Part shown: positions 3,973-45,206 of the stretch, piece by piece
Layout of the letters: each line of letters begins with the position of its first letter
Position numbering within the stretch: position 1 is the first letter of the stretch
NCBI GenBank assembly: GCA_023664365.1
Contig: JAMPFR010000019.1
Location: 1 to 49,036, forward strand
Length of the DNA: 49,036 bases
From: Acetatifactor muris
Lineage (GTDB): Bacteria; Bacillota; Clostridia; Lachnospirales; Lachnospiraceae
Reading direction: 5' to 3'
Program-made: the position numbers and the translations under genes
Notes under the pieces: generated by a model
Seen by the model: only the letters and a program-made list of their open reading frames with translations
What the model was told of the DNA's origin: nothing
Databases searched by the model: none

Positions 3973-4003
3973 GAGCGCAGAGGAAAAACAAGGAGGAGCA
4001 GAG

Positions 4004-27958: not shown

Positions 27959-28450
27959 ATGACAGATTATGAATGGCTTACTCAAATGGGTCTGTGCCAC
28001 AAGTGCAGGCGGGAAAAAGCGGCGCCTGATAAGAAGTACTGCTTTGATTGCTTGGAAAAGATTAGGGAAGATAATGCCAAGCGGTACGATCCCGAAAAAG
28101 CCAAGGCATATCAGGAGAGGCGCAGAGAACTTTATCAGGAGAAAAAACGGGATGGTATATGTGTCAGGTGCAGCAAGAAAGCGTCTTATGGAATATATTG
28201 TTATGAGCATTACATAAAAGAGTGCAGAAGGAGAGCAAAAAGATGTCAGGATGCAAAGATGCGGCGGCATGACAGGGGCTTGATTCCCGAAAAAAGAAAA
28301 GCAGAAGGATTATGTATATGGTGCGGAGAGATGGCGGTAAGTGGAACAAACGCTTGTGAAAGGCATATTAAAATTTTCCATGATGCAGGTAAAAAGGGAA
28401 GCGTGAAAGGAGCGATAAATTTTGGAAACTGGCAAAATCGAAGAATTTAG
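27959..28450 (+). CDS. Phage protein with repeated zinc-ribbon motifs
   Basis: The 163-residue protein has three CxxC pairs (CHKC/CFDC, CVRC/CYEH, CIWC/CERH) spaced through basic helices, so probably two or three zinc sites. Likely DNA or RNA binding. It overlaps the recombinase start by 29 bases. Confidence 0.55.
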   Translation: MTDYEWLTQMGLCHKCRREKAAPDKKYCFDCLEKIREDNAKRYDPEKAKAYQERRRELYQEKKRDGICVRCSKKASYGIYCYEHYIKECRRRAKRCQDAKMRRHDRGLIPEKRKAEGLCIWCGEMAVSGTNACERHIKIFHDAGKKGSVKGAINFGNWQNRRI

Positions 28451-29228
28451 AGCATATTTAATGGATTTGGAGCGTTCGCAAAATACGATTGATAATTACA
28501 TGTGGGCTCTAAAGGCTTTCTTCCAGAGGTATCCTGACGTGAATAAAGAAAATATGCTCGACTTTAAAAAATGGCTCCTTGAGGAGAAAAAGCCCAAAAC
28601 AGCACACAACCGGATCGTCGCGCTGAATCAGTATTGCCTATTCATAAAGCACCCGGAATATTGCGTAAAAGGGATCAAGATACACCAAAGTACAACGGTG
28701 GAAAACGTGATTACGCTGGAAGAATATGAAAATTTACTGGACTGCCTGCGCCAGGACGGAAATGAGCGCGGGTATTGGATGATTAAATTTCTCACAAAAA
28801 CCGGTGCGCGGGTAAGTGAATTTATAAGGCTGACAAAAGATGGACTGGACACAGGATATTGTGAGATGTGGACAAAAGGAAAAATCCGTAGAATATACAT
28901 ACCAAATACACTGATTGAAGAGAGTAGGGGATATTTTGACAAGCAGGAGTCGGAATACCTTTTTACAAACAGATTCGGGGAGCAGATGACAGCACGCGGG
29001 GTATCCCAGAATATCAAAAATTGGGCAAAGAAATATGGGATACGGGATGAGGTGGCACACCCTCATTCCTTTAGGCATTTATATGCAATAGAGTTTTTGA
29101 AGCACAATTCAAATATTTCCCTGTTGGCTGATTTAATGGGACATTCAAGTGTGAATACAACATCAATATATCTGAAATTAAGCAGAGAGGAGCAGATGCG
29201 GCAATTCAATGAAGCATCAAATTGGTAG
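28422..29228 (+). CDS. Second tyrosine recombinase, XerC/D-like
   Basis: The 268-residue protein has an N-terminal SAM-like domain and catalytic residues Arg in TGARVSEF, Lys in TKGKIRRIY, HSFRH, GHSS and Tyr in TSIYLKLS. The start is TTG 28422 with an AAAGGAG site. A recombinase before the late genes is separate from the integrase; it may act in DNA inversion, resolution of multimers, or as late-region regulator. Confidence 0.75.
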   Translation: METGKIEEFRAYLMDLERSQNTIDNYMWALKAFFQRYPDVNKENMLDFKKWLLEEKKPKTAHNRIVALNQYCLFIKHPEYCVKGIKIHQSTTVENVITLEEYENLLDCLRQDGNERGYWMIKFLTKTGARVSEFIRLTKDGLDTGYCEMWTKGKIRRIYIPNTLIEESRGYFDKQESEYLFTNRFGEQMTARGVSQNIKNWAKKYGIRDEVAHPHSFRHLYAIEFLKHNSNISLLADLMGHSSVNTTSIYLKLSREEQMRQFNEASNW

Positions 29229-31672: not shown

Positions 31673-31759
31673 ATGACAATGATAGAAATTATTAAAAATG
31701 CTATTGGTGGGACAGGTGGGTGTGGGATTTGGAACCCAATAGATGAGCAGGGAGATTAA
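31673..31759 (+). CDS. Tiny ORF before terS, 28 residues
   Basis: ATG 31673 follows a perfect AGGAGG at seven bases. The peptide has an amphipathic start (TMIEIIKNAIGG) and a Gly-rich turn (GGTGGCGIW). It could be a leader peptide or a signalling/holin-like peptide. It ends just before the tRNA-like element. Confidence 0.4.
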   Translation: MTMIEIIKNAIGGTGGCGIWNPIDEQGD

Positions 31760-31772
31760 AAAGCGGGTAATC

Positions 31773-31811
31773 GGATTGGACACCGGGGGGGTTCGACTCC
31801 CCCCAATCCCA
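31773..31811 (+). other. tRNA/tmRNA-like 3' element before terS
   Basis: GGGGGG, loop TTCGACT, CCCCCC (31786-31804) form a perfect T-arm, and AATCC after it pairs with GGATT at 31773. Discriminator-like A31811 follows. There is no proper D or anticodon arm. It mimics the 3' half of a tRNA or tmRNA: an attachment-site relic, an RNA-processing signal, or a structural mimic. Confidence 0.5.
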
Positions 31812-31870: not shown

Positions 31871-31897
31871 GTTTTGGAAAGAAAGCGGGGTGAGATA

Positions 31898-32734
31898 AGG
31901 GAGAACTACCAGAAGGCAGAAGCTGACTACATGGCCGGAATGAAATATAAAGACATAGCTAAGAAGTACAACACCACCATTAACACGGTCAAGAGCTGGA
32001 AGAAGCGGTATGACTGGAACCGGAAAGAGGGTGCACCCCAAAAGGGAAAAGGGTGCACACAAAATAAAGAGGGTGCACCCGCACACCCGGAGCAGATGGA
32101 TGACGGTACAAGAGAGACTGTGCAGAATAAAGACCTGACCCCGGAGCAGCAGATGTTCTGCATTTATTATATTCGTACATTCAATGCAACGCAGAGCTAC
32201 CTTAAGGCATATGGATGCAGTTATAATGTGGCAAATGCGGAGGGGTACAAACTTCTTGTAAAACCATGTGTTAAGAAGGAAATAGAACGCCTCAAAGAAA
32301 TCAAGCGCCAGATGATAGTTTCCGGCGCGGAGGACATTGTGGAGCTGCAGATGCGGATAGCCTTTTCCGACATAGGGGAGTATTTGACGTTTGGCCGGGA
32401 GCCGGGGGTGAAGGGAGATGTCAATGTGGTGCGCCTGAACGATTCAAGTGAAGTTGATACACAGCTGATACAGGAGGTCAAACAAGGCAAGGCAGGCGTT
32501 TCCGTAAAACTGGCAGACAAGCAGAAAGCAATGGACTGGCTTTCCAGATATTTCCTGATACATCCGGAGGACAAGTACAAAGCAGAATTTGACAGGAGGC
32601 GGGTGGAGCCGGAGGATTCAGACGTTGATACAGACGCGCCGAATGGCTTTGTTGATGCGCTGAAGGCCCAGGCGGAATCTGTTATGGAGGAAGCGGGTGA
32701 GATAATTGAAACAGAAGACATTATTCAGATTTAG
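31898..32734 (+). CDS. terS: Terminase small subunit, apparent AGG start
   Basis: The protein binds phage DNA and guides packaging. Residues 13-50 form an HTH (MKYKDIAKKYNTTINTVKSW); the terminase_2 domain follows with LTPEQQMFCIYYIRTFNATQSYLKAYG. Homologues begin a few residues before NYQKAEADYMAGM. No ATG/GTG/TTG is there. TTG 31874 is in frame but has no binding site and lies four bases after the terminator T-run. AGG 31898 stands four bases after GGGGTGA (31887-31893) and would give (M)ENYQKAEADYM, 278 residues. I infer initiation at AGG by the phage tRNA at 37678; ATA 31895 is an alternative. Confidence 0.75.
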   Translation, partial: RENYQKAEADYMAGMKYKDIAKKYNTTINTVKSWKKRYDWNRKEGAPQKGKGCTQNKEGAPAHPEQMDDGTRETVQNKDLTPEQQMFCIYYIRTFNATQSYLKAYGCSYNVANAEGYKLLVKPCVKKEIERLKEIKRQMIVSGAEDIVELQMRIAFSDIGEYLTFGREPGVKGDVNVVRLNDSSEVDTQLIQEVKQGKAGVSVKLADKQKAMDWLSRYFLIHPEDKYKAEFDRRRVEPEDSDVDTDAPNGFVDALKAQAESVMEEAGEIIETEDIIQI

Positions 32735-34031
32735 TCCGTTTACGACCAAACAGAAGGCTGTGTTGATGTGGTGGCTTCCCGGGAGCAGGTACGCATCCAA
32801 GAAGGGCATAATATGCGACGGGGCGATTCGGAGCGGGAAAACAACCGTCCTGTCCCTGTCCTTTGTAATGTGGGCAATGGAAACCTTTGACGAAGAGAAC
32901 TTTGCACTATGCGGCAAGACGATCCAGTCGCTGCAGCGGAATGTGATTGTGCAGCTTAAGCGGATGCTTGCATCCCTGGGGTATAAGGTAATAGAGCACC
33001 GTTCAGAGCACAGGATAACCATCAGCAGGGGCAGGCGTGAGAATGAATTTTACCTGTTCGGTGGGAAGGATGAGAGCAGCCAGGACCTGATTCAGGGCAT
33101 TACCCTTGCCGGTGTATTCTTTGATGAGGTGGCGCTGATGCCTGAAAGCTTTGTCAATCAGGCAACGGCAAGGTGTTCTGTGACGGGCTCCAAGTTCTGG
33201 TTTAACTGTAACCCGGAGGGGCCGGACCATTATTTCAAAACGGAATGGATTAATAACCTGAAGACCAGGAATCTGCTCAGGATTCATTTTGAGATGACAG
33301 ATAACCCAAGCCTTTCCCGTGAAATACTGGAGGAGTATACGCGGCAGTATCGGGGCGTGTTCTATGACCGCTTCATCCGCGGCTTGTGGGTGCTTGCCAG
33401 CGGCATCATCTTTCGGTACTTTGCCGAGGATGATACACCCTATCTGTATGATGATTCCGAGATATTTGATATTCAGGGAAAGCTTAAGGTATCCTTCAGC
33501 AAAATTGTAATAGGTATAGACTTTGGGGGAAACGGTTCCAAGACAACATTCTGCCTTACAGGCTATTTGAATGGGTATCATGATTTCCGGTTGATGGAGG
33601 AGAGCGGGCTTCCGCTGTCGGAGGATATAGATGCCAAGGCAATATGTGATAAATTCATTGAATTTTACAGCATGGCAATAAAAAAATATGGGCGCGTGGA
33701 CTATGTATTCCCGGACAGCGCAAGCCCCACCATGATAAACAGCCTGCGGAGCGCAGCACGGGAAGCAGGACTGCCGTGGCGGAATATTGCAGGGTGCCGT
33801 AAGAATGAGGTGTCCGAAAGACCTAGAACAATAGATTTGCTGTTTAATACCGGACGTCTGAAGATAAACCGGCGTTGTACCCAGATACGGAAAGCCATAA
33901 GCTCCCTGCGGTGGGATGAGGATCATCCGGACATACCGGAGGACAAGAACATAGGGAACTGCAATGACTGGTGGGATGCGTTCTGCTACTGCCTGTTGGA
34001 TTTCATAGAGTTCATTGATTTGGACAGATAG
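32706..34031 (+). CDS. terL: Terminase large subunit
   Basis: The 441-residue packaging motor has Walker A CDGAIRSGKTTV (residues 38-48), Walker B GVFFDEVALMP, and the nuclease domain with Asp in GIDFGGNGSKT, VFPDSASPTM and DWWDAFCYCLLDF. It overlaps terS by 29 bases. The start is TTG 32706, five bases after GGGTGA; a stop codon immediately upstream excludes an earlier one. Confidence 0.92.
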   Translation: MKQKTLFRFSPFTTKQKAVLMWWLPGSRYASKKGIICDGAIRSGKTTVLSLSFVMWAMETFDEENFALCGKTIQSLQRNVIVQLKRMLASLGYKVIEHRSEHRITISRGRRENEFYLFGGKDESSQDLIQGITLAGVFFDEVALMPESFVNQATARCSVTGSKFWFNCNPEGPDHYFKTEWINNLKTRNLLRIHFEMTDNPSLSREILEEYTRQYRGVFYDRFIRGLWVLASGIIFRYFAEDDTPYLYDDSEIFDIQGKLKVSFSKIVIGIDFGGNGSKTTFCLTGYLNGYHDFRLMEESGLPLSEDIDAKAICDKFIEFYSMAIKKYGRVDYVFPDSASPTMINSLRSAAREAGLPWRNIAGCRKNEVSERPRTIDLLFNTGRLKINRRCTQIRKAISSLRWDEDHPDIPEDKNIGNCNDWWDAFCYCLLDFIEFIDLDR

Positions 34032-34040
34032 GAGGCATAA

Positions 34041-35444
34041 AGGGAAAACTGTGTAAAAGAGTATCTGCAAAAAGAGGGTTATTCTATCAATACGGAGGCC
34101 CTGTCAGTAATAAAGCTGTGTGATGACTGGTATTCAAACCGTGAAATGGAGTTCCACAGGCGGAAGACGGTCCAAGGGGAAGACTATCGGCTACATAAGA
34201 TGAATTTTGCCAAACGGTGCTGCGCAGATGATGCGAATCTTTGTGAGTTGGTGGAGATTAATGCCGGTAAAGTCAAGGAGCAGCATGAATATGTCAAGAG
34301 TGTGCTGGACAGGAGTAACTTTGATACCATGTATCGCCGTCAGTTGGAGAAAGTCTCTGCAAACGGTACAGTTGCCTGTTATATAAGGATTGAAAACGCG
34401 CTGTTTTTGTCTAACGGCAGGACAAAAGGCGGTGAGATAAAGCTGAATTATGTGGATGCGGACTGCTACATACCCCTTACCGTAGAAAATGACATAATCA
34501 CGGAGGCTGCTTTCTCTGGTTCAAGCCTGGTAAGAGGAAAGAAACGAACAACATTGGTGTTATTCCGTGCGGAAAAGCATGGAAACTATATTTCGGACAC
34601 ACATGTATTTGATGAATTCGGGAATGAACTCAAAGACCAGCAGATTACTGTGAATCTTGGTGAAGTGAAGCCATTCGCAGTTATGCGCACGGCTGAAGTC
34701 AATAACTTTGACAATATGGAAGGATATGGCTTCCCCAAGGTGCTGAATTCCATTCCTGTTTTTGAGGGGTTAGACCTCTGTTACAATATCCTTTTTGGTG
34801 ACCTGGACAAGGGCGAGAAACTGGTACTTATCAATGAAATGCTTTGTAAATTTGATAAAAACGGGAACCCGATTACTCCGAATGAACAGATTAAAAAAAT
34901 ATTTGTTATGTTGGGAGAGAAACTGCCGCAGGAAGATGATGTATACCATGAATACAACCCGGAAATCAGAGTGGAGCAGATAACGAAGGTTTTTGAACTG
35001 CTCCTGTCTCTGCTGTCAATGTCTTTTGGATACGGCACCAAGAAATATACCTTTGAAAACGGGCAGATAACGACTGCAACGGAATACATCGGTCAGAAGC
35101 AGGACCAGATGCAGGACCTGAACCGTCAGAGGTTTGAGGCAACACAGTACATCAAGGATATTGTGAGGGCTGTGCTTTGGTATTCCAATACATTTCTTGG
35201 AAGTAGCTGGAATGTGGATGATGAGATTTCCGTTGATTATGATGATTCCTATATTACGGATAAAGAAGCGGAGCGCGAAAGAAAAAGGAATGATGCCTTA
35301 TCCTTTGACATTCCACAGCTGAAGGTTTGGTATCTGATGGATGCCTATTCCCTGGGCGAAGAAGAAGCGAAACAGCTGTTGAATCAGTCAGAGATGGAAG
35401 ATTCCGGTGATGATAGTTCAGATGATGGTGAGGGAGAAGACTGA
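34041..35444 (+). CDS. Portal protein (SPP1 gp6-like), apparent AGG start
   Basis: The portal forms the dodecamer through which DNA enters the capsid. Motifs include MNFAKRCCADDANLCELVEINAG, FFAVMR-like strands and a TATEYIGQKQDQM helix near the end. The conserved N-terminus (EYLQKEGYSI, IKLCDDWYSN) lies upstream of the first ATG (34146), which has no binding site. AGG 34041 is in frame five bases after a perfect AGGAGG (34030-34035) and would give (M)ENCVKEYLQKEG, 467 residues. The frame contains no ATG, GTG or TTG between. I infer AGG initiation. Confidence 0.8.
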   Translation, partial: RENCVKEYLQKEGYSINTEALSVIKLCDDWYSNREMEFHRRKTVQGEDYRLHKMNFAKRCCADDANLCELVEINAGKVKEQHEYVKSVLDRSNFDTMYRRQLEKVSANGTVACYIRIENALFLSNGRTKGGEIKLNYVDADCYIPLTVENDIITEAAFSGSSLVRGKKRTTLVLFRAEKHGNYISDTHVFDEFGNELKDQQITVNLGEVKPFAVMRTAEVNNFDNMEGYGFPKVLNSIPVFEGLDLCYNILFGDLDKGEKLVLINEMLCKFDKNGNPITPNEQIKKIFVMLGEKLPQEDDVYHEYNPEIRVEQITKVFELLLSLLSMSFGYGTKKYTFENGQITTATEYIGQKQDQMQDLNRQRFEATQYIKDIVRAVLWYSNTFLGSSWNVDDEISVDYDDSYITDKEAERERKRNDALSFDIPQLKVWYLMDAYSLGEEEAKQLLNQSEMEDSGDDSSDDGEGED

Positions 35445-37210
35445 TGCTGACAACAGAGCAGGAAGATATTATAGGGGGTGCATTGTCGCCTTTATTTCAA
35501 TATCTGGAACATGAGGTCATTGTTGATGTGGCAAACCGGATCCAGGCGACCATGGCATATTCCCGCACGGCGGAACTGGAAGCCCAGAGACTCAGTGACC
35601 TTGGCTTCAGCGCGGTGCAGATACGGAAAGAGGCCATGAAGATACTGCGGGCTGATTCGGCATATCAAAAAGAGGTGGCAAAAAACACTCTGGAACATAA
35701 AAGGACGGTCAAAAAGCTGTTACAGGAAATTACGGACAAGGCCAGAAAGGCCGCTGCCTGGGTTATAAAAAGGGCGGCGGATTTGTCCTATCTGGATGAT
35801 TTACATGTATGGAAGCAGGCAGGGAAGAGCCTGACAGATAAGTCCTTTCTGCCGCAGTTGGTGGAGGCAGTGGGGAAACAGACCGCAGACACAATGAAAA
35901 GCCTGGCACAGTCTACAGGCTTTAAAACCATGTCAGGCTATGAGCCGGTAGAAAGCCTGTACCGAAGGGAACTTGACAAAGCAATGATTAAGGTATGTAC
36001 CGGCACATTCAGCCAGGAGCAGGTGGTTTATGATACCGTGCGCAGTTTGTCCGCCAGCGGTCTCAGGAATATTGATTTCACTTCCGGGTACAGTATGCAG
36101 CTTGACACTGCTGTAAAGCTGGCGGTAAGGACGGGGGCGCATCAGGTTTCGGCCAGAATAATGGACGCAAATATACAGAGTACAGGCGAAAATCTTGTAT
36201 ATGTGTCCAAACACTGGGGTGCCAGAAATACAGGAATCGGCCATGCAAACCATGAGCAGTGGCAGGGGAAGGTTTATTTCATCAAAGACGGAACAGACTA
36301 CTCCGGGGAGGCGCACCGTATCAATCAGGACAGAATCATGTCTTTATGGTATGCCACCGGGTACAGCGTAGACGGTAGTAGGGAGAATGATCCTCTGGGG
36401 CTGAACGGCTATAACTGCCGACATAAGCATTATGTATGGTTTGAGGGTGTATCTTCCCTGCCCAAGGAAGATCCGGAGCCGGAGCCTGTCACAGTCAACG
36501 GGAAAAACTATGACTATTACGCTATGAGTCAGAAAATGCGCTCCATGGAACGGAATATTCGGGCGTTGAAACGGGAACGGGAGGCACTTTCATCCCTGGG
36601 TATGGATACCAAAGAGGTTTCCGCCCGGATAAAGGGCAAAATCAGAGAATACGAGGAGTTTTGCCGGGACTGCGGAGTAAAGTCAGACATTAACCGCCTG
36701 CGCTATGAGTGCGGCACGTCAGACCTGACGAAAACGGAGGCGTGGCAAGAATATTATAGCGAAAAGAAAGTAGTTGCGGATGATTTGGAATCTGGTACAA
36801 TGGATTTATCAAAAGAGGAAAAGAGAATTGAAGTGCATACGGTTGGCAGAATCAACAAAGATATGTATAAGTGCATAACGGAAGATATAACCACGGATGA
36901 GGTTATTATCACGGATGAAAGAATTGCACATATTAAGGAACGGCATCCGAGCGATTATGAAAGATATTATAAGTATTTGAAAGAAATCGTAGAACATCCT
37001 CAATATATTATTGAGGTGAATAAACCATATACTGCCTTGCTTTTGAAAGAGTTTAGCGTGGGAGAGGAATCGTTTAAGACTGTATTGAGACTTATAACTT
37101 CACATGATAATCCGGAGTTTAAAAATTCTATAATTACATTTATGAAAATAAATGATAGGGAATGGAAAAGATTGCTTAAAAATAAAAGGATTCTTTACAA
37201 AGAAGAATAA
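35444..37210 (+). CDS. Minor capsid protein with C-terminal PBECR-like nuclease domain
   Basis: The N-terminal 330 residues fit the phage minor capsid protein 2 family next to portal genes, with YCRHKHYVWFEG-like end (GYNCRHKHYVWF). A linker and coiled coil (about 355-420) lead to a C-terminal domain (about 460-588: IAHIKERHP, HPQYIIEVNK, SFKTVLRLITS, NSIITFMKI) typical of the PBECR toxin-like nucleases carried on phage head proteins. Such domains are thought to enter the cell with DNA. The last 130 codons are richer in A and T than the rest, suggesting later acquisition. ATG 35444 overlaps the portal stop. Confidence 0.75.
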   Translation: MLTTEQEDIIGGALSPLFQYLEHEVIVDVANRIQATMAYSRTAELEAQRLSDLGFSAVQIRKEAMKILRADSAYQKEVAKNTLEHKRTVKKLLQEITDKARKAAAWVIKRAADLSYLDDLHVWKQAGKSLTDKSFLPQLVEAVGKQTADTMKSLAQSTGFKTMSGYEPVESLYRRELDKAMIKVCTGTFSQEQVVYDTVRSLSASGLRNIDFTSGYSMQLDTAVKLAVRTGAHQVSARIMDANIQSTGENLVYVSKHWGARNTGIGHANHEQWQGKVYFIKDGTDYSGEAHRINQDRIMSLWYATGYSVDGSRENDPLGLNGYNCRHKHYVWFEGVSSLPKEDPEPEPVTVNGKNYDYYAMSQKMRSMERNIRALKREREALSSLGMDTKEVSARIKGKIREYEEFCRDCGVKSDINRLRYECGTSDLTKTEAWQEYYSEKKVVADDLESGTMDLSKEEKRIEVHTVGRINKDMYKCITEDITTDEVIITDERIAHIKERHPSDYERYYKYLKEIVEHPQYIIEVNKPYTALLLKEFSVGEESFKTVLRLITSHDNPEFKNSIITFMKINDREWKRLLKNKRILYKEE

Positions 37211-37222
37211 AAATGGTATAAT
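37194..37222 (+). promoter_or_regulatory. Promoter at the end of the minor capsid gene
   Basis: TTTACA (37194-37199) and TATAAT (37217-37222) are 17 bases apart, with TGG before the -10 box. It overlaps the last codons of the capsid gene and should start transcription at about 37229, exactly at the candidate structured RNA. Confidence 0.7.
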
Positions 37223-37228
37223 TTGCAC

Positions 37229-37350
37229 ATGATAAAAGAGAGGGATTGTTTGAGGTGGAAGATTTCGTCCCCGTCCACACGCCGATGGCTTGACAGGAGA
37301 AATCCGAGAGATGCAGGAGAATGGGACGCCTGCCGAACAATCTCTTTTCT
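37229..37350 (+). ncRNA. Candidate structured small RNA with its own promoter and terminator
   Basis: About 120 bases without a gene are closed by a long stem: AAAAGAGA (37234-37241) and TTGTTTG (37246-37252) pair with CGAACAA (37334-37340) and TCTCTTTT (37341-37348). Inside are a GGA-GAAA-TCC tetraloop hairpin (37296-37305), GCAGG/CCTGC (37313/37329) and GTGGA/TCCAC (37255/37274). CGTCCC (37266) can also pair with GGGACG (37323) as a long-range helix. The 3' side ends in a T-rich run and works as a terminator. I do not recognise the class. It lies between a late gene and the AGG-reading tRNA. Confidence 0.55.
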
Positions 37351-37403
37351 TTACCATATTTTTATGATAGTTTCTTTGAAGTGAAAATTGTTCGCTTCCC
37401 CTA

Positions 37404-37432
37404 TTGTCTTTTCAAGGATACTTTGCTACAAT
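37404..37432 (+). promoter_or_regulatory. Promoter before the KTR gene and tRNA
   Basis: TTGTCT (37404-37409) and TACAAT (37427-37432) are 17 bases apart. It would drive the KTR gene, and, if hairpin B is read through, the tRNA and scaffold genes. Confidence 0.6.
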
Positions 37433-37481
37433 ATGTATGTGATGAATCTGGAACAGCCAACAAAATAAGGGGGTGTTGGTA

Positions 37482-37649
37482 AGGAAACAGTCATACTGGC
37501 AGGCGTGTCCGAAGTGTGGGTATCCCCACTTTATCAAGAAGTACAGGGACACGGTACTGATAAACTTTCCGGCCTATTGTAAAGGCTGCAAAAGAGAAGT
37601 GAATATATCGACAAAGAGCCAAGAGCCGAAACTGGAATCAGTGATATGA
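37482..37649 (+). CDS. Cysteine-rich KTR-family small protein, apparent AGG start
   Basis: The 55-residue protein has CPKCGYPHFIKKYRDTVLINFP and CKGCKREVNIST, the two-CxxC pattern of the cysteine-rich KTR family, a likely zinc ribbon. GTG 37473 is inside the binding site AAGGGGGTG (37467-37475) and TTG 37476 directly abuts it, so neither is well placed. AGG 37482 is six bases after it and gives (M)KQSYWQACPKCG. The 3' end overlaps hairpin B; the shared motif AAGAGCCAAGAGCC encodes KSQEP here. Function unknown. Confidence 0.65.
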   Translation, partial: RKQSYWQACPKCGYPHFIKKYRDTVLINFPAYCKGCKREVNISTKSQEPKLESVI

Positions 37650-37670
37650 TTCCGGAACGGCTCTTTTTTT
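37614..37670 (+). terminator. Hairpin B with doubled AAGAGCC, directly before the tRNA
   Basis: AAGAGCC is doubled (37614-37627); the second copy plus G pairs with CGGCTCTT, and GGAATCA pairs with TGATTCC inside. Eight-base T-run ends at 37670, only seven bases before the tRNA. Transcripts from the upstream promoters must read through it to make the tRNA, so it may regulate the tRNA or form its 5' processing boundary. Confidence 0.65.
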
Positions 37671-37677
37671 ATTGTTC

Positions 37678-37752
37678 AGCAGGGTAGAGAAGTATGGCAA
37701 TCTCGCCGCCCTCCTTAGGCGGAGAACGCTGGTTCAAGTCCAGCTCCTGCGA
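37678..37752 (+). tRNA. Initiator-like tRNA with anticodon CCU (reads AGG)
   Basis: The 75-base cloverleaf is complete: acceptor AGCAGGG/TCCTGCG, T8, D-arm GAGA-AGTATGGCAA-TCTC, G26, anticodon stem CCGCC/GGCGG with loop CTCCTTA, variable AGAAC, T-arm GCTGG-TTCAAGT-CCAGC, A73, no CCA. An automatic call would be tRNA-Arg(CCT). But the 1:72 pair is a mismatch (A:G), 11:24 is A:U, and positions 29-31 pair with 39-41 as three G-C pairs, all features of bacterial initiator tRNA. The loop differs from CUCAUAA only at 35 and 37; the GGGT-GAG-AGT-GG-TC-G series also follows tRNA-fMet. The 29-31 bases are GCC, not GGG, and U37 is unusual. A second 5+7 hairpin (GTGGG-TGATACT-CCCAC, 37757-37773) follows. 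Confidence 0.85.
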
Positions 37753-37805
37753 TTCTGTGGGTGATACTCCCACGTTAAAAAAATTATCGTTAAAGGAGAG
37801 AGGCT

Positions 37806-38024
37806 ATGAAAAGAGAAGAACTGGAAGCATTAGGGCTTTCCAAGGAGCAGATTGATTCCGTACTGAATATGCATCACAAGGAGCTTGACCCTGTAAATGC
37901 CCAGCTGAAAACGGCGCAGGAAGACCTGCAGGCAGAACAGGACAAGGCGAAGGAGCAGGACAACACCATTAAGGAACTGAAAAGGGACTTGATGAGTTTA
38001 AGGATGCAGATGTCAGCGGGATGA
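37806..38024 (+). CDS. Scaffold protein (phage GP20-like), N-terminal part
   Basis: The frame holds the start of a GP20-type head scaffold (KREELEALGLSKEQIDSVLN and a coiled coil). It ends early at 38024 in a frameshifted tail (MSLRMQMSAG). Reading one base back near 37990 continues into DEFKDADVSG, joining the next frame. Scaffold proteins shape the procapsid and leave it, so loss of the join would matter. Confidence 0.6.
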   Translation: MKREELEALGLSKEQIDSVLNMHHKELDPVNAQLKTAQEDLQAEQDKAKEQDNTIKELKRDLMSLRMQMSAG

Positions 38025-38407
38025 AACTCAAGATTACGGAACTGGAGGACAGTATCAAGGCAAAGGATGCTGCCCACAGGAAGGAAATTGAGGAACGTGA
38101 TTTCAATGATTCCCTGAAGGAAGCCATTTCTGCCGCCAACGGGAAGAATGCCAGAGCAATCACAGCTCTTCTGGATGTGGATAAGTTGAAAGCGTCCAAG
38201 AATCAGAAGGAAGATATTGCAGCGGCGTTGAAGAGCCTGGCGGAGGCAGAAGACAGCAAGATGTTGTTCGGGGAAGCAGAAGCGGACGTTATCGGAGAGG
38301 GAAGCTTTCCCGGACGGGTAAACAAACCGAGCGGCAGCGCAGACGACGCGCAGATGCGGGCAGTAATGGGACTGCCGCCCATCAACAATGAAGGAGGAAA
38401 TAAGTAA
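38021..38407 (+). CDS. Scaffold protein, C-terminal part
   Basis: The frame holds the rest of the scaffold (ERDFNDSLKEAISAANGKNARAITALLD, ASKNQKEDIAAALKSLAEAEDSKMLFG). Its ATG overlaps the stop of the first part (ATGA), so reinitiation could make a separate protein. The gene is therefore either split with translational coupling or broken by one lost base. The stop overlaps the capsid ATG by one base. Confidence 0.6.
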   Translation: MKLKITELEDSIKAKDAAHRKEIEERDFNDSLKEAISAANGKNARAITALLDVDKLKASKNQKEDIAAALKSLAEAEDSKMLFGEAEADVIGEGSFPGRVNKPSGSADDAQMRAVMGLPPINNEGGNK

Positions 38408-39273
38408 TGCCCAACACAATCGCTTTAGCAAAAAACTATGTATCGCTGCTGGATGAGGTTTACCGCAGGGCATCCGTGACAGCAGATTTGACCTCTGACC
38501 CGCAGATGTCCAGAGCGGGGGCAAATGCCAATGAGATCATCTACCCCCAGATTTCTGTAACGGGTCTGGGCGATTATGACCGTAACAGCGGTTACACCAC
38601 AGGTGCAGTTGACCTGAAGTGGGTTACGGCCAGATTTAATTATGACAGGGGCACGAAAATCAGTGTGGATGTCATGGATAATGAGGAATCCAGAAACCTG
38701 GCGTTTGGCATGGCGGGAGCTACGCTGATGCGTGAGAAGGTGGCACCGGAGGCAGATGCTTTCACGTTTGCCAGTATTGCGGCAATGGAGAATATTTCCA
38801 AATCTCAGGATGCCATTGCAAATGCCGGGCAGTTCCTGGAAGCTCTGCTTACTGCATGGACCAAGATGGATGAAGATGAAGTACCCCAGGAGGGCAGGAT
38901 ACTTTATGCAACGGCTACGCTGCTTAATAGTGTTATGGCCCTGGACACCACGAAATCCAGAGAGATTCTGGCAAAGTTTGGTGTGAAAAAGGTGGTTCCC
39001 CAGGCAAGATTTTACACCGCCATTGATTTGCTGGACGGGAAGAGCCCGGGTGAGGAGCTGGGGCATTACCGTAAGGCTGAGGGGAGCAGCAATATCAATT
39101 TCATGATTATCCACAAGCCGGCAATCATTAAGTTCGATAAGCATACGGCCAGTAATATTATTCCTGCGTCTGCCAATGCGGATGCGGATGCCGACATCTC
39201 CAAGTACCGCAAATATGGCATGGTGGACGGCTACAAGAATAAGCGGGCCGGCATTTACATGTCTTACACATAA
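38407..39273 (+). CDS. Major capsid protein
   Basis: The 288-residue protein has the features of HK97-fold capsid proteins of Clostridia siphoviruses: helical N-arm, YPQISVTGLGDYDRNSGY, a DEDEVPQEGRILYATATL strand, and a C-terminal KYRKYGMVDGYKNKRAGIY block. It follows the scaffold gene as expected. About 400 copies would form the shell. Confidence 0.8.
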   Translation: MPNTIALAKNYVSLLDEVYRRASVTADLTSDPQMSRAGANANEIIYPQISVTGLGDYDRNSGYTTGAVDLKWVTARFNYDRGTKISVDVMDNEESRNLAFGMAGATLMREKVAPEADAFTFASIAAMENISKSQDAIANAGQFLEALLTAWTKMDEDEVPQEGRILYATATLLNSVMALDTTKSREILAKFGVKKVVPQARFYTAIDLLDGKSPGEELGHYRKAEGSSNINFMIIHKPAIIKFDKHTASNIIPASANADADADISKYRKYGMVDGYKNKRAGIYMSYT

Positions 39274-39284
39274 GGAGGAGCAGC

Positions 39285-39509
39285 ATGAGAAAAGTTGGAA
39301 TGGGAGTGACCGAGAACGGCAGGAACCTGGAAGCAGAGAACGAAGAACTGAAGAAAGCGAATGCCGGCTTGGAAGCAGAGAATGCGAAACTGAAGAAGGC
39401 ACTGGAAAAGGCTAAGCAGAAAAGCAAGGCTGACGCTGGGGAGCAGAAGGAAGTCGCTGAAGAGAGAGAACCGGACGCTGCTGACCCCGGTGCGCCTGCG
39501 GCAGAATAA
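39285..39509 (+). CDS. Small coiled-coil head protein
   Basis: The 74-residue protein has a heptad coiled coil (EAENEELKKANAGLEAENAK, with the unit repeated) and an acidic Pro/Ala tail. It follows the capsid gene by 11 bases. Likely a capsid accessory protein; not recognised by family. Confidence 0.5.
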   Translation: MRKVGMGVTENGRNLEAENEELKKANAGLEAENAKLKKALEKAKQKSKADAGEQKEVAEEREPDAADPGAPAAE

Positions 39510-39529
39510 TCGGGAAGGGGGCTGAAGAT

Positions 39530-39907
39530 ATGTCTTATGTTACATGGGAGTATTACAGCTCCCTTTTTGCAAAGGTGCCCAGGGATGAGTTTGAGCGACT
39601 GGCAGTACAGGCGGAAAAGCGAGTAAACAGCTTTACACGGGGCAGGGCGGAACGGTTCCTGAAATCCTATGATGCTGATACCGATTTTCACAGACAGATC
39701 TATGATGCGGTGCATTTTACGATATGTGAAGTAATGAATAAACTGTATCTGCAGGAGACAAGCGGAGTAGGGAGCGGTCTTTCCTCTGTCAGCAATGACG
39801 GGTATTCCGAATCCTACAAGGTAGCAACGGAATCCGAGAAACAGGAGGAGCTGAATGCAGTTATACGCAGCGGTTTAAGCGGGACGGGACTGGCAGGTGT
39901 GTTATGA
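39530..39907 (+). CDS. Head-tail connector protein (gp6-like)
   Basis: The 125-residue helical protein (YVTWEYYSSLFAKVP, FHRQIYDAVHFTICEVMNKLY) fits the phage connector/DNA-packaging family that stacks below the portal. It ends four bases into the next gene. Confidence 0.65.
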   Translation: MSYVTWEYYSSLFAKVPRDEFERLAVQAEKRVNSFTRGRAERFLKSYDADTDFHRQIYDAVHFTICEVMNKLYLQETSGVGSGLSSVSNDGYSESYKVATESEKQEELNAVIRSGLSGTGLAGVL

Positions 39908-40338
39908 GTTTGTTTACAGATGAAATGACAGTGTATAACCATTTTTATGATGAAGCAGCGGAAACAGATTTGTGGCAACGCACGGTCATCCGCGGGGTGC
40001 AGTGGTCTCACAATAAGGCGCAGACTTCCGTATCCGGCGGGGTGATGAGTGAAAAGCGGGTGGAATCCGTTACGATAGATTTTCAGCACAATTATGGCAA
40101 TGTGAAGTATCTTGACCCCATAGCCTTTGCGGCGCTGGAAGATAAGTCCGGCTGCTGGACATTGAATTCCGCAGATGGGCAGGACGTGCTTGTCCTTGGG
40201 GAATCTGACCGGGAAATCGGTAAGGACTATCCTATCAGCAGCCTTCGCAAAGACTTTCAATATTGCGGGACGGTGACGGCAGTGTCGGACAATCGGAACA
40301 GGAATTTCCTAAGGAATATCAAGGCGGTGGTGGAATAA
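39904..40338 (+). CDS. Head closure/connector protein
   Basis: The 144-residue protein (FTDEMTVYNHFYDEA, WQRTVIRGVQW, GKDYPISSLRKDFQYCGTVT) fits the small neck proteins found after the gp6-like gene in Clostridia phages, probably head-closure. Start overlaps the previous stop; its own stop overlaps the next start. Confidence 0.6.
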   Translation: MSLFTDEMTVYNHFYDEAAETDLWQRTVIRGVQWSHNKAQTSVSGGVMSEKRVESVTIDFQHNYGNVKYLDPIAFAALEDKSGCWTLNSADGQDVLVLGESDREIGKDYPISSLRKDFQYCGTVTAVSDNRNRNFLRNIKAVVE

Positions 40339-40769
40339 TGGCATACACTTTTGTGTGTACTTTTAACCTGGGCGATTGCATTAAGACCCTTGGTCTGGAA
40401 GAAAGAGGGAGAATTCAGCAGTTTGTGGCAAATGAGGTATTGAGATTGTCTGACCCCTATGTGCCGCTGGCTAAAGGTGGCTTAATGGGAAGCGGACATA
40501 CGGAAGACGGTACGGATATTGTCTGGGATCTGCCATATGCTCATTATATGTGGGAGGGTATTGTGTACGAAGACCCTAAACTGCACTGTGCAGGATTTAA
40601 GACGGAAAACGGCTGGCGTTCCCGGAAGGACGTGGAGAAGGTTCCGACAGACCGCAAGCTGCAGTACGGCAATGGAAATCTCAGGGGAAGCCATTGGGCG
40701 GAACGTATGCTGCAGGACGGCGGACGGAAAGAAATCGAGGACAAAGCAAGGAGAGAGGTTGGAAAATGA
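40338..40769 (+). CDS. Minor capsid/neck protein (HK97 gp10-like position)
   Basis: ATG 40338 has GGTGG upstream; the longer frame is not needed. The 143-residue protein has YVPLAKGGLMGSGHT and WDLPYAHYMWEG, typical of the minor capsid protein that joins head and tail. Stop overlaps the next ATG. Confidence 0.65.
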   Translation: MAYTFVCTFNLGDCIKTLGLEERGRIQQFVANEVLRLSDPYVPLAKGGLMGSGHTEDGTDIVWDLPYAHYMWEGIVYEDPKLHCAGFKTENGWRSRKDVEKVPTDRKLQYGNGNLRGSHWAERMLQDGGRKEIEDKARREVGK

Positions 40770-41197
40770 CAACGGTATCAAACGCGATTATCGCATGGCT
40801 CAAAACCTTTAACCCGGAGGATTACGGGAAGATGAAGTCCATTGAAACGGATATTCTGCCGGCAAAGGCGGAGACCTATTCACTGGCGAAGGAGCCTGTT
40901 ATCAACAAAAGGACATCCATCACCGGGAAGGTTACGGCAACAGAACACTATACACTTATGGCGCGGCTCTCCAGTCAGACAGCAAGTGACCGTAAAGGGA
41001 ATGTGGAGTGGGGAGAACTGCTTGAGGAGTGGGTGGAGGACCAGAACAGGAGCGGAAACTTTCCGGCTGTCTGCGGTGCAGTAGTCCGCAGCGTGAGCGT
41101 TACCACGCCATTCTGTATCGGAGGTGTAATGGGAACAAATGACAGCGTATATCAGCTGACAATATCAATTAAGTATGAGAAGGAGAGAGCATTATGA
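40766..41197 (+). CDS. Tail completion protein
   Basis: ATG 40766 follows AGAGAGGTTGG. The 143-residue protein (WLKTFNPEDYGKMKSIETDIL, AKEPVINKRTSITGKV) fits the tail terminator/minor capsid family found between neck and tail tube genes. Overlaps both neighbours by four bases. Confidence 0.6.
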   Translation: MTTVSNAIIAWLKTFNPEDYGKMKSIETDILPAKAETYSLAKEPVINKRTSITGKVTATEHYTLMARLSSQTASDRKGNVEWGELLEEWVEDQNRSGNFPAVCGAVVRSVSVTTPFCIGGVMGTNDSVYQLTISIKYEKERAL

Positions 41198-41679
41198 GAG
41201 AGGATTTAAGGCATTTCATTGATGTATCTATGAATGGCACGGAAGTAAAATACTGTCTGTTGGGAAACGGCATTTCTTCCCTGACGGAGGAGATGAACCC
41301 TACGGAGGAGTCAAAGCATTATATCAATATGAGCAGTGATTCCAATACAATTAAGTCCTATCAGCGCAAGTTTGAGGTGGACAAGGAAGACTGTGAGGAT
41401 GATGACGTGCAGAAGTGGCTTGACAGCATGGTTGACAGGCTGCCTACCGGCGCAAGTGCGCGTACATCCTTTGTGCGCCTGCGGCTGAAGGATGCGGTGC
41501 CCGGACAGGCCGGGGCATATAAGGCTATCAAGGTGCCCTGTACGGTATCCGTAAGTTCCAGCGGCGGTGACGGCGGCGATTATGTGCACAATGTCGTCAC
41601 GGTGACACAGTGCGGGGATGACATCCATGGCATATTTGATGTTTCCACTTCCGCATTTACGGAAAATGGAAAAGACTAG
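41194..41679 (+). CDS. Major tail tube protein
   Basis: The 161-residue protein (FIDVSMNGTEVKYCLLGNGI, YQRKFEVDKEDCEDD, YKAIKVPCTVSVSSSGGDGG) fits the phage tail tube family by sequence character and place before two chaperone genes. Confidence 0.7.
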   Translation: MREDLRHFIDVSMNGTEVKYCLLGNGISSLTEEMNPTEESKHYINMSSDSNTIKSYQRKFEVDKEDCEDDDVQKWLDSMVDRLPTGASARTSFVRLRLKDAVPGQAGAYKAIKVPCTVSVSSSGGDGGDYVHNVVTVTQCGDDIHGIFDVSTSAFTENGKD

Positions 41680-41732
41680 AAGCGAGAAGCATGATACATT
41701 CATATGGCAATGCCGGAAAGGTGGTAATTAAA

Positions 41733-42149
41733 GTGGACAAAAAAATCAGAGTAAGTGAAGGTATCAGGATAGAGGTCAATGATAATGGCGATTGCATTGT
41801 GGCTCATGTGGAAGACCATAACTTTATTGATAATTTCCATGGCCTGATAGAAAAATTTGAAAATATACATGGTGAATTGAAGGCGGCGGAGGCAAAGACG
41901 GTTTCCAAGGAAGAGCAGATGCAGTTGGTAAAGACAAAGATGCAGGAAATCACAGGCGCCATTGACGGACTTTTTGGGGTGGATACCTGTAAAAAAGTTT
42001 TTGGGGAAGGTGTTATTCCCAGCGGATTCCTGATTGCGGAATTCTTCGAACAGTTGGAGCCAATTTTCCGGGAATATGTCGATAAACGCCAGAGAACCAT
42101 ATCTGAAAAGTATAACCGGAACAGGGGACATGGCAGCAAACGGGGATAA
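41733..42149 (+). CDS. Tail assembly chaperone, first
   Basis: GTG 41733 follows AAAGGTGG at eight bases; ATG 41691 upstream has no site. The 138-residue protein has a beta N-terminus (KIRVSEGIRIEVNDNGD) and a helical C-terminus (FFEQLEPIFREYVDKR). It corresponds to gpG-type chaperones that load the tape measure. No slippery heptamer was seen at its end, and the second chaperone has its own ATG. Confidence 0.6.
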   Translation: MDKKIRVSEGIRIEVNDNGDCIVAHVEDHNFIDNFHGLIEKFENIHGELKAAEAKTVSKEEQMQLVKTKMQEITGAIDGLFGVDTCKKVFGEGVIPSGFLIAEFFEQLEPIFREYVDKRQRTISEKYNRNRGHGSKRG

Positions 42150-42154
42150 GCAGA

Positions 42155-42745
42155 ATGTTCAACATATTACTGGATGATTTGCCTGAAAAATGGAACGGGT
42201 ATGAAATGCGTACAGATCTGGCGACGGGGATACAGCTGTCACAATGCCTTACGGATGAGGACTTAAGTGAGGAGGAAAAACTACATAAAGCGGTTTCACT
42301 CCTGTTTGAAGATGATTTCCCGCGTGAGTATGGGCAAATTTCAGAGGCGATTATGTGGCTGCTGAACGGCTGGAACAATGACAATGTGCCGAAGCAGACG
42401 CATAAAAGCAAAGAAATAGAGGTTATGGATTTTGACATGGACAGCTGGCGCATTCATGCCGCGTTCCGCAGACAGTACGGAATAGACTTGGGCAAGGAAA
42501 GCCTGCATTTCTGGGAATTTATGGGACTGCTTTCCAATCTGGATGAGTGCGCCTTTACCAGGGTCATTGAACTCCGTCAGAAGAAAATTACCGGGAGTAT
42601 GTCCAAAAAGGAGAAGGATGCAATACAAAAGGCGCAGAGTATCTACCGGATACAGAAGAAAGGGGCATCTGCTGAAACAGAAGAGGAGCAGGACAAACAC
42701 AGGGAAGCAATAGAGGCGTTTAACCGTATGAGAAAGAAAGCATAA
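42155..42745 (+). CDS. Phage Gp15-like tail assembly protein, second chaperone
   Basis: The 196-residue protein (MRTDLATGIQLSQCLTDEDL, LHFWEFMGLLSNLDECAFTRVIELRQKKI) fits the Bacteriophage Gp15 family, which lies before the tape measure in many siphoviruses. It ends 14 bases before the AGG of the tape measure. Confidence 0.75.
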   Translation: MFNILLDDLPEKWNGYEMRTDLATGIQLSQCLTDEDLSEEEKLHKAVSLLFEDDFPREYGQISEAIMWLLNGWNNDNVPKQTHKSKEIEVMDFDMDSWRIHAAFRRQYGIDLGKESLHFWEFMGLLSNLDECAFTRVIELRQKKITGSMSKKEKDAIQKAQSIYRIQKKGASAETEEEQDKHREAIEAFNRMRKKA

Positions 42746-42758
42746 AAGAGGTGGCACA

Positions 42759-45206
42759 AGGGCTGGATATGATGCAAGTATCAGGGTACATACCGAAGTA
42801 GACAATACGGAATTAAAGCAGACGCAGAAGGAATTTGATACGCTGGGCAACAAAGCCGAGGATGCCGGAAAAAAGATAGATAAAAACGTATCCCATAAGT
42901 CGGTAAAGGTAAGTATGTCTGATGAGGAACTTGCCGAAGCAGAAAGACATATTGATGAAATTCTGGCAAAAAAGGATAAGGTATCTGAAACCACGGAAGT
43001 TTCATTTGAAGGCGCAATCAGGGAACCGGAATATATCGATTGGGGAAAGACTATAGAGGGAAATATTGCTGCAGAAACGCAATATAATGCCATTCTGTCC
43101 GGTAGAAAAGAATTAAATGCGGAGGAACTTGCCCTGCAGGAAAGACGTGCTAAAGCACGCGCTGAAGCAGAGAGAAAGCAGCAGATTCTTGAAGAGGAGA
43201 ACTTGCGAAAACAGCAGGCAGCTGAGGAGGAGAAACTGCGAAAGCAGCAGATTCAGGAAGCCGAGGAGCAGAGGCTGCAGGGAATAAAGGAATCGGCTAT
43301 TGTCTCAGACCAGCATGTGGTTGATTTGCTTCAGGAACAAAATGTGCTCCAGGCCAGACTCAACGATTTGAAAAAGGCGGGGGTTGGTTATGGACATGAG
43401 GAATATGATGCTATTGCAGCCCGGCTTAAGAATATTAATGCAGAGGTTAAAAAATATCAGGCAGGGCTGGGCAATATGGGGAAGGCCAGCCCCTCAGCAA
43501 AACCGGCGGATGTTCCGGTCAGTTCCGGGAATGTTCAATCTGTAGAAAAAGAGGCAAACCTTCTGACAAAAGGATTTGAAAAGGCCCGCGGCGCCGCTAA
43601 GAAGTGTTTTGGGGCTGTAGATAAGCACAGCACGAAATCCTCCGGTATGCTTGGCAAAGTGGCAGGCCGCGTTAAGGGATTGATGCTTTCCCTGATGATA
43701 TTCAGTCAGATAAGTAAAGCATTCAATGCAATGGTATCCGCAATGAGCGAGGGCTTTCAGAATCTTGTCCGTTATTCTTCAGATTATAACAGTGCCATGT
43801 CGGCCATGAAATCCGAAATGGCTACGCTGAAAAACAACTTGGCTGCGGCGTTTGAACCTGTCGTAACGGCGGTTATTCCCTACATTGCACAATTAATCGG
43901 CTGGCTGAACAAGGCGGTCGACACGATAGGCCAGTTTTTTGCCGCAATCAGCGGGAAAAGTACATATACCAGAGCAAAGAAGCAGGTCATTGACTATGCC
44001 AAGTCGATTGAAAAGGCAACACAGGCAGCTAAAGGGGCGCTGGCGGCATTTGATGAAATTAATGTGCTGCAGGACAACAGCGATACCGGGAGCGAGAATG
44101 CAGGGGGCGAAGTAACCGGAGCGGATGCCTTTGAAACGGCGGAAATCAACAGTGGTATACAGGAGTTCGCTTCCGGGGTACAGGCGCTTATGGATTCCCT
44201 TCAGCCATTCAAGGATATGTTTGACGAATGGCTGACCGGGCTGAATTTTGAACCGTTGTTGACATCCCTGGGAGAGTTAAAGACTGCCTGCGAACCTTTT
44301 GTCGGGTATCTGTATGAGGGACTGCTGTGGTTCCTCTCAAATGTGCTGGCGCCGATAGGAACCTGGACAATCAACCAAGCACTTCCGGATACCATTAGTA
44401 TGCTAGCATCTGCCTTTTCTTCTCTGGGCACGGTAATTGAGACGATAAAGCCGTCTCTTGACTATATTTGGAATAATGTGCTTGTTCCCATAGGCAGTTT
44501 TACGGGGGAGGTTTTTCTGTGGGCAATCGGCCTGCTGCAAACTGCATTCACGGAGCTGTCAGATTTATTTACGGAAAAGGGCGATAAGATTAATAATATT
44601 CTGACCGCTATCGGGCGGGTATTTGAATTATTGTGGACCATGGCGGTGAAGCCTACTATCCAGTTCATCATGGGACGCATCTCTGCAATGGTTAATTATA
44701 TCTTCCGAATCGCCGGAGACGTGATAGATATTCTGGACGGAATTGTTGAATTTGTGGCCGGAGTTTTCACAGGAGACTGGGAGCGGGCATGGGACGGTAT
44801 TGTGGGCATATTTAAAGGCATCATTAATCTGTGCGTGGATATTGTTGAGAAATTTGTAAATTCCATTATTTCAGGTTTGAATTTTATCAGCATTGACGTG
44901 CCGGAGTGGGTGCCGCTGTTAGGGGGCAAGCATTTTGGATTTGATATAGAGCCACTATCGCTGCCCAGGCTGGCTACAGGCGGAATTGTTACCTCTTCCG
45001 TACTTGCAAATATCGGAGAGGCCGGAAGGGAAGCCGTGCTGCCCCTGGAAAATAATACGGAGTGGATGGATATGTTGGCGGACAGAATCGGGGGCAGGGA
45101 TGTAAACATCCGATTTGAAGGATCCCTCTCTGAACTGGGCAGAATTCTGAAGCCGGTGATTGATACGGAGAATGCCAGAATCGGCAAGAATTTCAGGACA
45201 ACATAA
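42759..45206 (+). CDS. Tape measure protein, apparent AGG start
   Basis: The 815-residue protein sets tail length and carries coiled coils (about 115-185), hydrophobic helices (about 300-660) and a C-terminal ATGGIVTSSVLANIGEAGREAVLPL motif typical of tape measures. Coding clearly continues upstream of the first ATG (42915). AGG 42759 lies four bases after GAGGTGG (42748-42754) and gives (M)AGYDASIRVHTEVDNTELKQ, the usual family start. No ATG, GTG or TTG is in frame between 42747 and 42915. A weaker internal start at 42915 (AAAGGT upstream) would lose 52 residues. I infer AGG initiation. Confidence 0.8.
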   Translation, partial: RAGYDASIRVHTEVDNTELKQTQKEFDTLGNKAEDAGKKIDKNVSHKSVKVSMSDEELAEAERHIDEILAKKDKVSETTEVSFEGAIREPEYIDWGKTIEGNIAAETQYNAILSGRKELNAEELALQERRAKARAEAERKQQILEEENLRKQQAAEEEKLRKQQIQEAEEQRLQGIKESAIVSDQHVVDLLQEQNVLQARLNDLKKAGVGYGHEEYDAIAARLKNINAEVKKYQAGLGNMGKASPSAKPADVPVSSGNVQSVEKEANLLTKGFEKARGAAKKCFGAVDKHSTKSSGMLGKVAGRVKGLMLSLMIFSQISKAFNAMVSAMSEGFQNLVRYSSDYNSAMSAMKSEMATLKNNLAAAFEPVVTAVIPYIAQLIGWLNKAVDTIGQFFAAISGKSTYTRAKKQVIDYAKSIEKATQAAKGALAAFDEINVLQDNSDTGSENAGGEVTGADAFETAEINSGIQEFASGVQALMDSLQPFKDMFDEWLTGLNFEPLLTSLGELKTACEPFVGYLYEGLLWFLSNVLAPIGTWTINQALPDTISMLASAFSSLGTVIETIKPSLDYIWNNVLVPIGSFTGEVFLWAIGLLQTAFTELSDLFTEKGDKINNILTAIGRVFELLWTMAVKPTIQFIMGRISAMVNYIFRIAGDVIDILDGIVEFVAGVFTGDWERAWDGIVGIFKGIINLCVDIVEKFVNSIISGLNFISIDVPEWVPLLGGKHFGFDIEPLSLPRLATGGIVTSSVLANIGEAGREAVLPLENNTEWMDMLADRIGGRDVNIRFEGSLSELGRILKPVIDTENARIGKNFRTT

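Follow-up and report, generated by a model that had tools for sequence, protein, structure and literature searches.

The 49,036-nucleotide contig JAMPFR010000019.1 (positions 1 to 49,036, forward strand; Acetatifactor muris, assembly GCA_023664365.1), referred to here in its entirety as the window, carries a prophage whose late region combines two unusual features: several genes that appear to begin with the codon AGG, and a tRNA gene with the anticodon CCU. The features concerned are listed below in window coordinates.

31898..32734, + strand: terS (small terminase), AGG start; Shine-Dalgarno (SD) sequence GGGGTGA, SD energy -11.5; PHROG terminase small subunit, 3.6e-81
34041..35444, + strand: portal, AGG start; SD AGGAGG 5 nt before, TAA directly upstream; PHROG portal, 5.4e-66
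37482..37649, + strand: cysteine-rich KTR-like small protein, AGG start; phrog_5602, 0.00058
37678..37752, + strand: phage initiator-like tRNA with anticodon CCU, identified with ARAGORN (which calls it tRNA-Arg) and Rfam; the sole ARAGORN tRNA in the window
42759..45206, + strand: tape measure protein (TMP), AGG start; SD GAGGTGG; PHROG TMP, 3.5e-74

An earlier note on this DNA had proposed that these four genes start at AGG, and the codons at 31898, 34041, 37482 and 42759 are indeed in frame, each behind a good SD sequence. N-terminal alignment with homologues, the check that the note had suggested, placed every one of them at the position of ATG or GTG in relatives (other loci are designated by L or G numbers). 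The portal is the clearest of the four and is decisive within the window: since TAA lies directly 5' of the AGG, this codon is the first of the open frame, the next ATG is 35 codons in, and L069, L010, L014 and L089, relatives without the CCU tRNA, have ATG at the aligned position. The terS AGG aligned with the GTG of L004, L076 and L014; an in-frame TTG upstream, at 31874, has an SD energy of -1.7 compared to -11.5 for the AGG, and a start at ATA was rejected, as L076 and L014 retain ATA just 5' of their GTG. The TMP start, RAGYDASIRVHTEV, aligned with MADYDTSVRVHTEM of L009, which begins its TMP with ATG despite carrying a CCU tRNA. For KTR, L012 has ATG and L009 has AGG at the aligned codon. 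KTR is the least certain case: GTG and TTG stand in frame three and two codons before its AGG, though both are very near the SD sequence. As a separate observation, an element resembling a tRNA T arm (GGGGGGTTCGACTCCCCCC), whose ends are complementary, is located 5' of terS, at 31725-31811; ARAGORN makes no call there, and the element is possibly a tRNA remnant or a packaging element.

The AGG starts extend well beyond the window. A portal search yielded L001-L004, and alignment of three capsid proteins yielded the further loci, 79 from genome_contigs (best 80 of 89) and 80 from viral_contigs (best 80 of 137); six loci from a TMP search in viral_contigs were not used. Start positions were defined by homologues with an SD-supported ATG, GTG or TTG in loci without the CCU tRNA. 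In a first version of the scan, AGG stood at the aligned codon in 21 of 105 genes of CCU-tRNA loci versus 7 of 1256 elsewhere, and near, rather than at, the position in a further 8 and 2 genes, respectively. While 20 of those 21 had no canonical SD start within four codons, each of the seven control codons (in L036, L120, L121 and L122) had one, and their rejection leaves 0/1256. The second version covered more phages and counted every codon. It left out the duplicates G399d and L220, the copies L088 (of L004), L212-L215 and L217, the loci L221, L251, L255 and L256 as not relevant, genes with fewer than two votes, and windows of more than 24 codons. An SD sequence followed by AGG, with no canonical start nearby, was found in 49/173 genes of the CCU-tRNA phages and in 0/1760 genes of 158 other loci (Fisher p ~4e-55, relatedness ignored). 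Restricted to genes without a nearby canonical start, the counts are 49/68 versus 0/221, and the runner-up codons in the CCU-tRNA set, AAA and GCA, reached 11 each. The earlier note had tied AGG starts to the tRNA, and no relative with AGG starts but without such a tRNA appeared among the 1760 control genes. This comparison of aligned sequences confirms the observation made in the window and shows that the AGG positions are gene starts, seen only in phages with the CCU tRNA.

It could be argued that these starts are real but are served by the host initiator tRNA, as a weak and regulated form of initiation to which the phage tRNA is incidental. Weak host initiation at codons of the ATT or ATA type exists, and the Flavonifractor phage Castelnaud (ON453903, L257), in which ARAGORN found no tRNA, apparently begins its portal with ATA at 3974, behind GAGGAGGTGA and 75 bases 5' of the annotated start. 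Against this, AGG starts were seen only where the tRNA is present, with none in the 1760 genes of loci that lack it, and several phages use AGG even for proteins required in large amounts, the capsid being one, making a host-only explanation very improbable. An ATT codon was also noted at the homologue-defined start, behind AGGAGGTGG, of a long frame 5' of the capsid gene in L159 (5285-6820), likely a portal.

Portals provide the most consistent part of this association, in line with the note's expectation of AGG alongside the tRNA and ATG in relatives without it. AGG is the start in 12/12 portals seen on CCU-tRNA contigs, which belong to two different head modules: eight SPP1-type portals (the window and seven others) and four of the HK97 type. 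The portal of L004 begins AGG AAA GAG TGT GTA, and its near-identical counterparts in L001, L002 and L003 begin ATG AAA GAG TGT GTA; L004 carries the CCU tRNA, and L001, whose contig spans the slot, has a CAU tRNA there. According to ARAGORN, this slot 5' of the capsid gene holds a CCU tRNA in the window, L004, L009, L011, L013, L027, L076 and L096, and a CAU tRNA in L001, L069 and L090. TMP starts with AGG in 11/12 CCU-tRNA phages in which the gene was seen (in L013 it was recognized by size, place and N-terminus only), and the major capsid protein (MCP) does so in 7/12. The set of AGG genes thus varies by phage, with portal and TMP nearly always included and terS, terL, protease, capsid, minor head, tail and lysis genes included in some. 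In G400, it comprises terS, portal, MuF, capsid, TMP (weak SD, -5.8), a holin and other late genes; in L219, the capsid gene starts at AGG, and its PHROG homology begins at residue 2.

The association was also approached from the tRNA. Viral_contigs were scanned with tRNA patterns, the starts being examined only after HK97-type phages had been found, and this led to phages with different head genes. Their HK97-type portals start at AGG in G397, G398, L253 and L254. In G397 and G398, the same is true of protease, capsid and TMP, and in G398 also of the major tail gene; L253 adds terS. G397 further starts a tail gene with AGG, as well as a gene that matches an endolysin PHROG, lies right after TMP and could be a distal tail gene. 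The L254 protease starts with ATG. At the matching places, the Lactobacillus phages Ld25A and PMBT4 have TTG for the portal and ATG for the protease. Homology of the HK97 capsids begins some residues in, so the AGG start of these genes rests on the SD sequence and gene order. In G397 (L244), a tRNA-Ala(CGC)-like gene directly adjoins the CCU tRNA. The hosts of the CCU-tRNA prophages are mostly Lachnospiraceae.

Nearly all AGG starts fall in late genes, with the limits between early and late set by the analyst. Consistent with the note's claim that no early gene needs such a start, AGG was the best start in none of the 29 early genes of the window, four of which lack an SD-supported start of any kind. 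A homology-free scan of five CCU-tRNA phages gave AGG as the best-supported start in 28/110 late versus 1/80 early genes, and the homologue-based counts are 54/189 and 0/24, the early genes being thinly sampled. The note had also stated that the remaining late genes of the window have standard starts, and this proved correct for MCP, terL, the minor head gene and most others, all of which use ATG, GTG or TTG. Three of these genes are the following.

32706..34031, + strand: terL, canonical TTG start, outside the AGG set
35444..37210, + strand: MuF-type minor head protein; ATG in the window, AGG in L004, L011, L027, L076, L096 and G400
38407..39273, + strand: major capsid protein; ATG in the window, AGG in L011, L013, L093/L096 and G400

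A skipping-rope RNA (RF02924, 46.8 bits) is located at 37245-37341, between the minor head gene and KTR, with a promoter-like site just 5' of it at 37194-37222.

Related CCU tRNAs were found in 17 distinct phages including the window. An eighteenth of this type, L261 1337-1406 (MT838485.1), lies on a human-gut phage contig with several tRNAs, on which no late genes were seen. The 17 parsed sequences include neither L261 nor L220, which is 100% identical to L096. In the window tRNA, A1 and G72 are unpaired, followed by G2:C71, C3:G70 and A73, and all 20 other stem pairs form. The 1:72 position lacks a Watson-Crick pair in all 17 tRNAs (A.G, G.G, C.A, G.A or A.A), and G2:C71, C3:G70 and A73, which are formylation elements, are constant throughout. 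Eight of the tRNAs were collected from the capsid neighbourhood with no filter on tRNA sequence, and these have the same acceptor features (8/8). Among six that align without gaps, both sides have changed in 11 of 21 pairs with the cloverleaf kept, and pair 1:72 forms in none. Initiator tRNAs have a purine at position 11 and a pyrimidine at 24 (A11:U24); the CCU tRNAs have A:T in eight, including the window, and T:A in nine. G30:C40 is retained in 15/17, the window tRNA having C30:G40. An A20, read from the strings as the A after the GG of the D loop, is present in 2/17 and absent in 15/17. Host tRNAs for comparison were taken from relatives, because those in the draft genome of the window include neither an initiator nor an Arg-CCU tRNA: the initiators L230 and L238 have C1.A72 and C1.U72 together with G2:C71 and C3:G70, and L228, an Arg-CCU tRNA belonging to the L027 genome, shows G1:C72, C2:G71 and T3:A70.

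These features bear on the simplest alternative, that the gene encodes an ordinary Arg-CCU elongator serving codon compensation, that AGG stands near SD sequences by chance and that the true starts are downstream ATG codons. The ARAGORN label tRNA-Arg fits this, as does the arginine meaning of internal AGG, and a purine-rich triplet such as AGG easily arises near SD sequences. The N-termini of homologues are nevertheless conserved up to the AGG codon, such codons occur in 0/1760 control genes compared with 12/12 portals, and the acceptor stem is unlike that of the host L228 at 1:72, 2:71 and 3:70. Phage-borne tRNA-Arg(CCU) genes for codon compensation share the anticodon and the phage location with these tRNAs and differ from them in the acceptor stem and in the linkage to start codons; of the traits of an ordinary tRNA-Arg(CCU), a paired 1:72 and A20, as in L228, the former is missing in 17/17 and the latter found in 2/17. 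Ordinary arginine supply was therefore rejected on the basis of the start scan (49/173 versus 0/1760) and the acceptor stem differences, and we consider it hardly credible.

A second alternative is that AGG has been reassigned to methionine generally, as Shulgina and Eddy described for a clade of Bacilli. The phage tRNA has the Met identity features listed there (A73, G2:C71, C3:G70 and, in most cases, no A20), which, as far as the accessible parts of PMC8629427 state, support the Met identity of the CCU tRNA of that clade. The meaning of internal AGG was determined in 136 aligned genes of CCU-tRNA phages, using columns conserved at 70% or more. Of 145 such columns, 100 hold R, 16 K and 3 M; for the comparison codon AGA, R is found in 171 of 232. 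Internal AGG is thus still arginine and there has been no codon reassignment, which leaves general reassignment to methionine, rejected on these same columns (R 100/145, M 3/145), with next to no chance of being right. In the text available of Shulgina and Eddy 2021 (PMC8629427), the likeness between the two cases consists of a CCU tRNA with a Met-type acceptor stem and mostly no A20, and the difference is that AGG in the uncultivated Bacilli means Met genome-wide, whereas in the phages internal AGG is Arg and starts alone are affected.

We propose that AGG is a private start codon with its own phage-encoded, initiator-like tRNA, which would start varying sets of late genes behind normal SD sequences. 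Judged from sequence comparison, we assign this explanation a probability of roughly 0.88, and the corresponding part of the earlier reading, that late genes use AGG as a start codon in conjunction with the CCU tRNA of the phage, is supported by the 49/173 versus 0/1760 contrast. In the proposed process, the phage tRNA would be charged, with methionine as our first guess and arginine as the second, because A73, G2:C71 and C3:G70 are of the Met type, the Arg element A20 is mostly missing, and C35 is described in the consulted part of PMC8629427 as the least critical anticodon nucleotide. The charged tRNA could then be formylated by the host transformylase and placed by IF2 in the P site, where it would read AGG, while the ordinary Arg-CCU tRNA of the host would read internal AGG. 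The association of AGG starts with the tRNA (49/173 versus 0/1760) lends such an initiating role indirect support. To our knowledge, natural bacterial initiator tRNAs always have the anticodon CAU, to which alternative start codons are near-cognate. The phage tRNA resembles bacterial tRNA-fMet in its non-Watson-Crick 1:72, G2:C71, C3:G70 and A73, as in L230 and L238, and host initiator genes were the sole matches, at E up to 1e-14, of the phage tRNA model in the order and class genomes described below; it differs from it in the CCU anticodon, the lack of GGG:CCC and the mixed 11:24 (A:T 8, T:A 9). It would accordingly be initiator-like in function and acceptor stem and fall outside the full definition of an initiator, with neither GGG:CCC nor CAU. 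The closest parallel is engineered: in the portions consulted of Lee et al. 2021 (PMC8576571), which also provide the two identity elements of initiator tRNAs and their roles, amber initiator tRNAs act as a second, non-CAU initiator that starts chosen genes at a private codon. The difference is that the phage case would be natural, with a sense codon that keeps its elongation meaning, whereas the engineered tRNA, according to the same portions, was given the 3GC element. Our literature search, whose coverage excluded most subscription papers and bioRxiv's own preprints, found no report of AGG starts with a phage initiator tRNA. If the proposal is correct, a parasite has duplicated and split the start signal with the elongation code unchanged, and the portal, tape measure and capsid genes of such phages would be shortened or overlooked by standard gene finders. 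Synthetic biology would gain a naturally evolved orthogonal initiator, and CCU tRNAs without the 3GC element, which is thought important for the P site, would provide a test of initiator identity.

Several points weigh against a private start codon with its own tRNA. The phages are related, and the genes in the 49/173 count are therefore not independent. The homology-free scan is not free of noise, giving AGG in 4/124 genes of five control loci. L009 has the CCU tRNA and keeps ATG in both TMP and MCP, AGG being seen on its contig at KTR, and two CCU-tRNA loci, L218 and L252, have no confirmed AGG start on their contigs. The L218 candidate is an AGG with an SD sequence at 1101 (rc coordinates) of a terL frame; as PHROG homology sets in at residue 74, this start is unconfirmed. 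The L252 frame that follows the tRNA offers ATG codons with weak support. For nine of the 17 tRNAs, the search patterns fixed part of the acceptor stem, in six cases G70, C71 and A73 with a purine at 72 and in three cases G2 and C3. The CAU tRNA of the sister phage L069 has a paired C1:G72. The survey of further genomes says little on prevalence: a covariance model built from six phage tRNAs and applied at E up to 1e-14 to samples of 392 order and 391 class genomes (overlapping, with stricter filters) matched three host initiator tRNA-Met(CAU) genes in two genomes and nothing else, and at this E it misses the window's own tRNA. The combination of C35 and U36 is an Arg anticodon pattern, and C35 is not a Met pattern. 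The anticodon-stem GGG:CCC occurs in 0/17 CCU tRNAs, and a 3GC mutant of the initiator tRNA is reported, in the accessible portion of PMC10486304, to be inactive in initiation in E. coli.

A tRNA pattern run on 397 family genomes gave two matches, which agree in contig number and place with the L076 and L011 genomes; the pattern misses the window tRNA, which has a longer variable loop. In L221, L255 and L256, three other pattern hits, ARAGORN found no tRNA, and these were rejected. Other phage contigs (L023/L024/L039, L095, L101 and L251) have initiator-like tRNA-Met(CAU) genes, those of L095 and L101 with a 1:72 mismatch and GGG:CCC. Such tRNAs are possible forerunners of the CCU form.

The class of mechanism is better settled than its purpose, for which we consider three readings: a late-expression lock, nuclease evasion and a neutral ratchet. 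The lock would rest on gene order. As the tRNA gene lies within the late cluster or heads it, genes with AGG starts would become translatable only after late transcription has made the tRNA. In the window, KTR is followed by a terminator-like hairpin with a T run, and the tRNA begins seven bases past that run (read by eye; a separate scan does not list the hairpin). This leaves the tRNA no room for its own promoter, and read-through of a longer transcript is its probable source. Private AGG and its private initiator tRNA might form an orthogonal initiation code of natural origin, which temperate phages evolved or acquired on more than one occasion and which acts in the late phase only and bars translation of virion and lysis genes in a lysogen or in a cell or phage lacking the tRNA. 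The chances of this fuller version, as assessed from the sequences, seem about even. The lock would be partial, since ATG, GTG or TTG is kept in MCP, terL, minor head and most other late genes of the window phage, though withholding portal and tape measure would in itself be enough to prevent virions.

Alternatively, the same initiation mechanism could have been selected for evading VapC-type nucleases, which cut the anticodon of the initiator tRNA. VapC-LT2 targets the anticodon of tRNA-fMet and phages generally avoid encoding tRNA-fMet, according to the part of PMC10264068 available to us, and late genes would be translated at a time when such a defence may already be active. Early genes keep their canonical starts, which speaks against evasion, and we hold it to be unlikely, if a serious contender.

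The third reading needs no adaptive purpose: a CAU to CCU mutation would have made AGG starts tolerable, and their accumulation would have locked the tRNA in. Single-base changes suffice for CAU to CCU in the tRNA and for ATG to AGG in the start, with two required from GTG. The different gene sets among phages (MCP 7/12, TMP 11/12) and the CAU tRNA in the slot of the sister phage are compatible with such a ratchet. In the portal tree, six CCU-tRNA phages form a clade (100/98) whose sister (100/100) is L069, with the CAU tRNA and ATG starts. Because the window and L013 are placed elsewhere in the tree, the CCU/AGG label needs three changes, at least two of them by well-supported branches, although its history may also have been one gain and two losses. 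These three changes, together with the second head module, look like repeated selection or transfer, as does the constancy of AGG in the 12/12 portals seen. A purely neutral origin is doubtful in our view, on a par with nuclease evasion.

Elsewhere in the window, two integrase genes of the tyrosine-recombinase type were noted at 28422-29228 and 11606-12601; one lies at the prophage edge and the other just 5' of a cytosine methylase gene and the late genes. The early region also encodes a PAPS-reductase-domain protein (23539-24837), possibly a DNA modification or defence gene.

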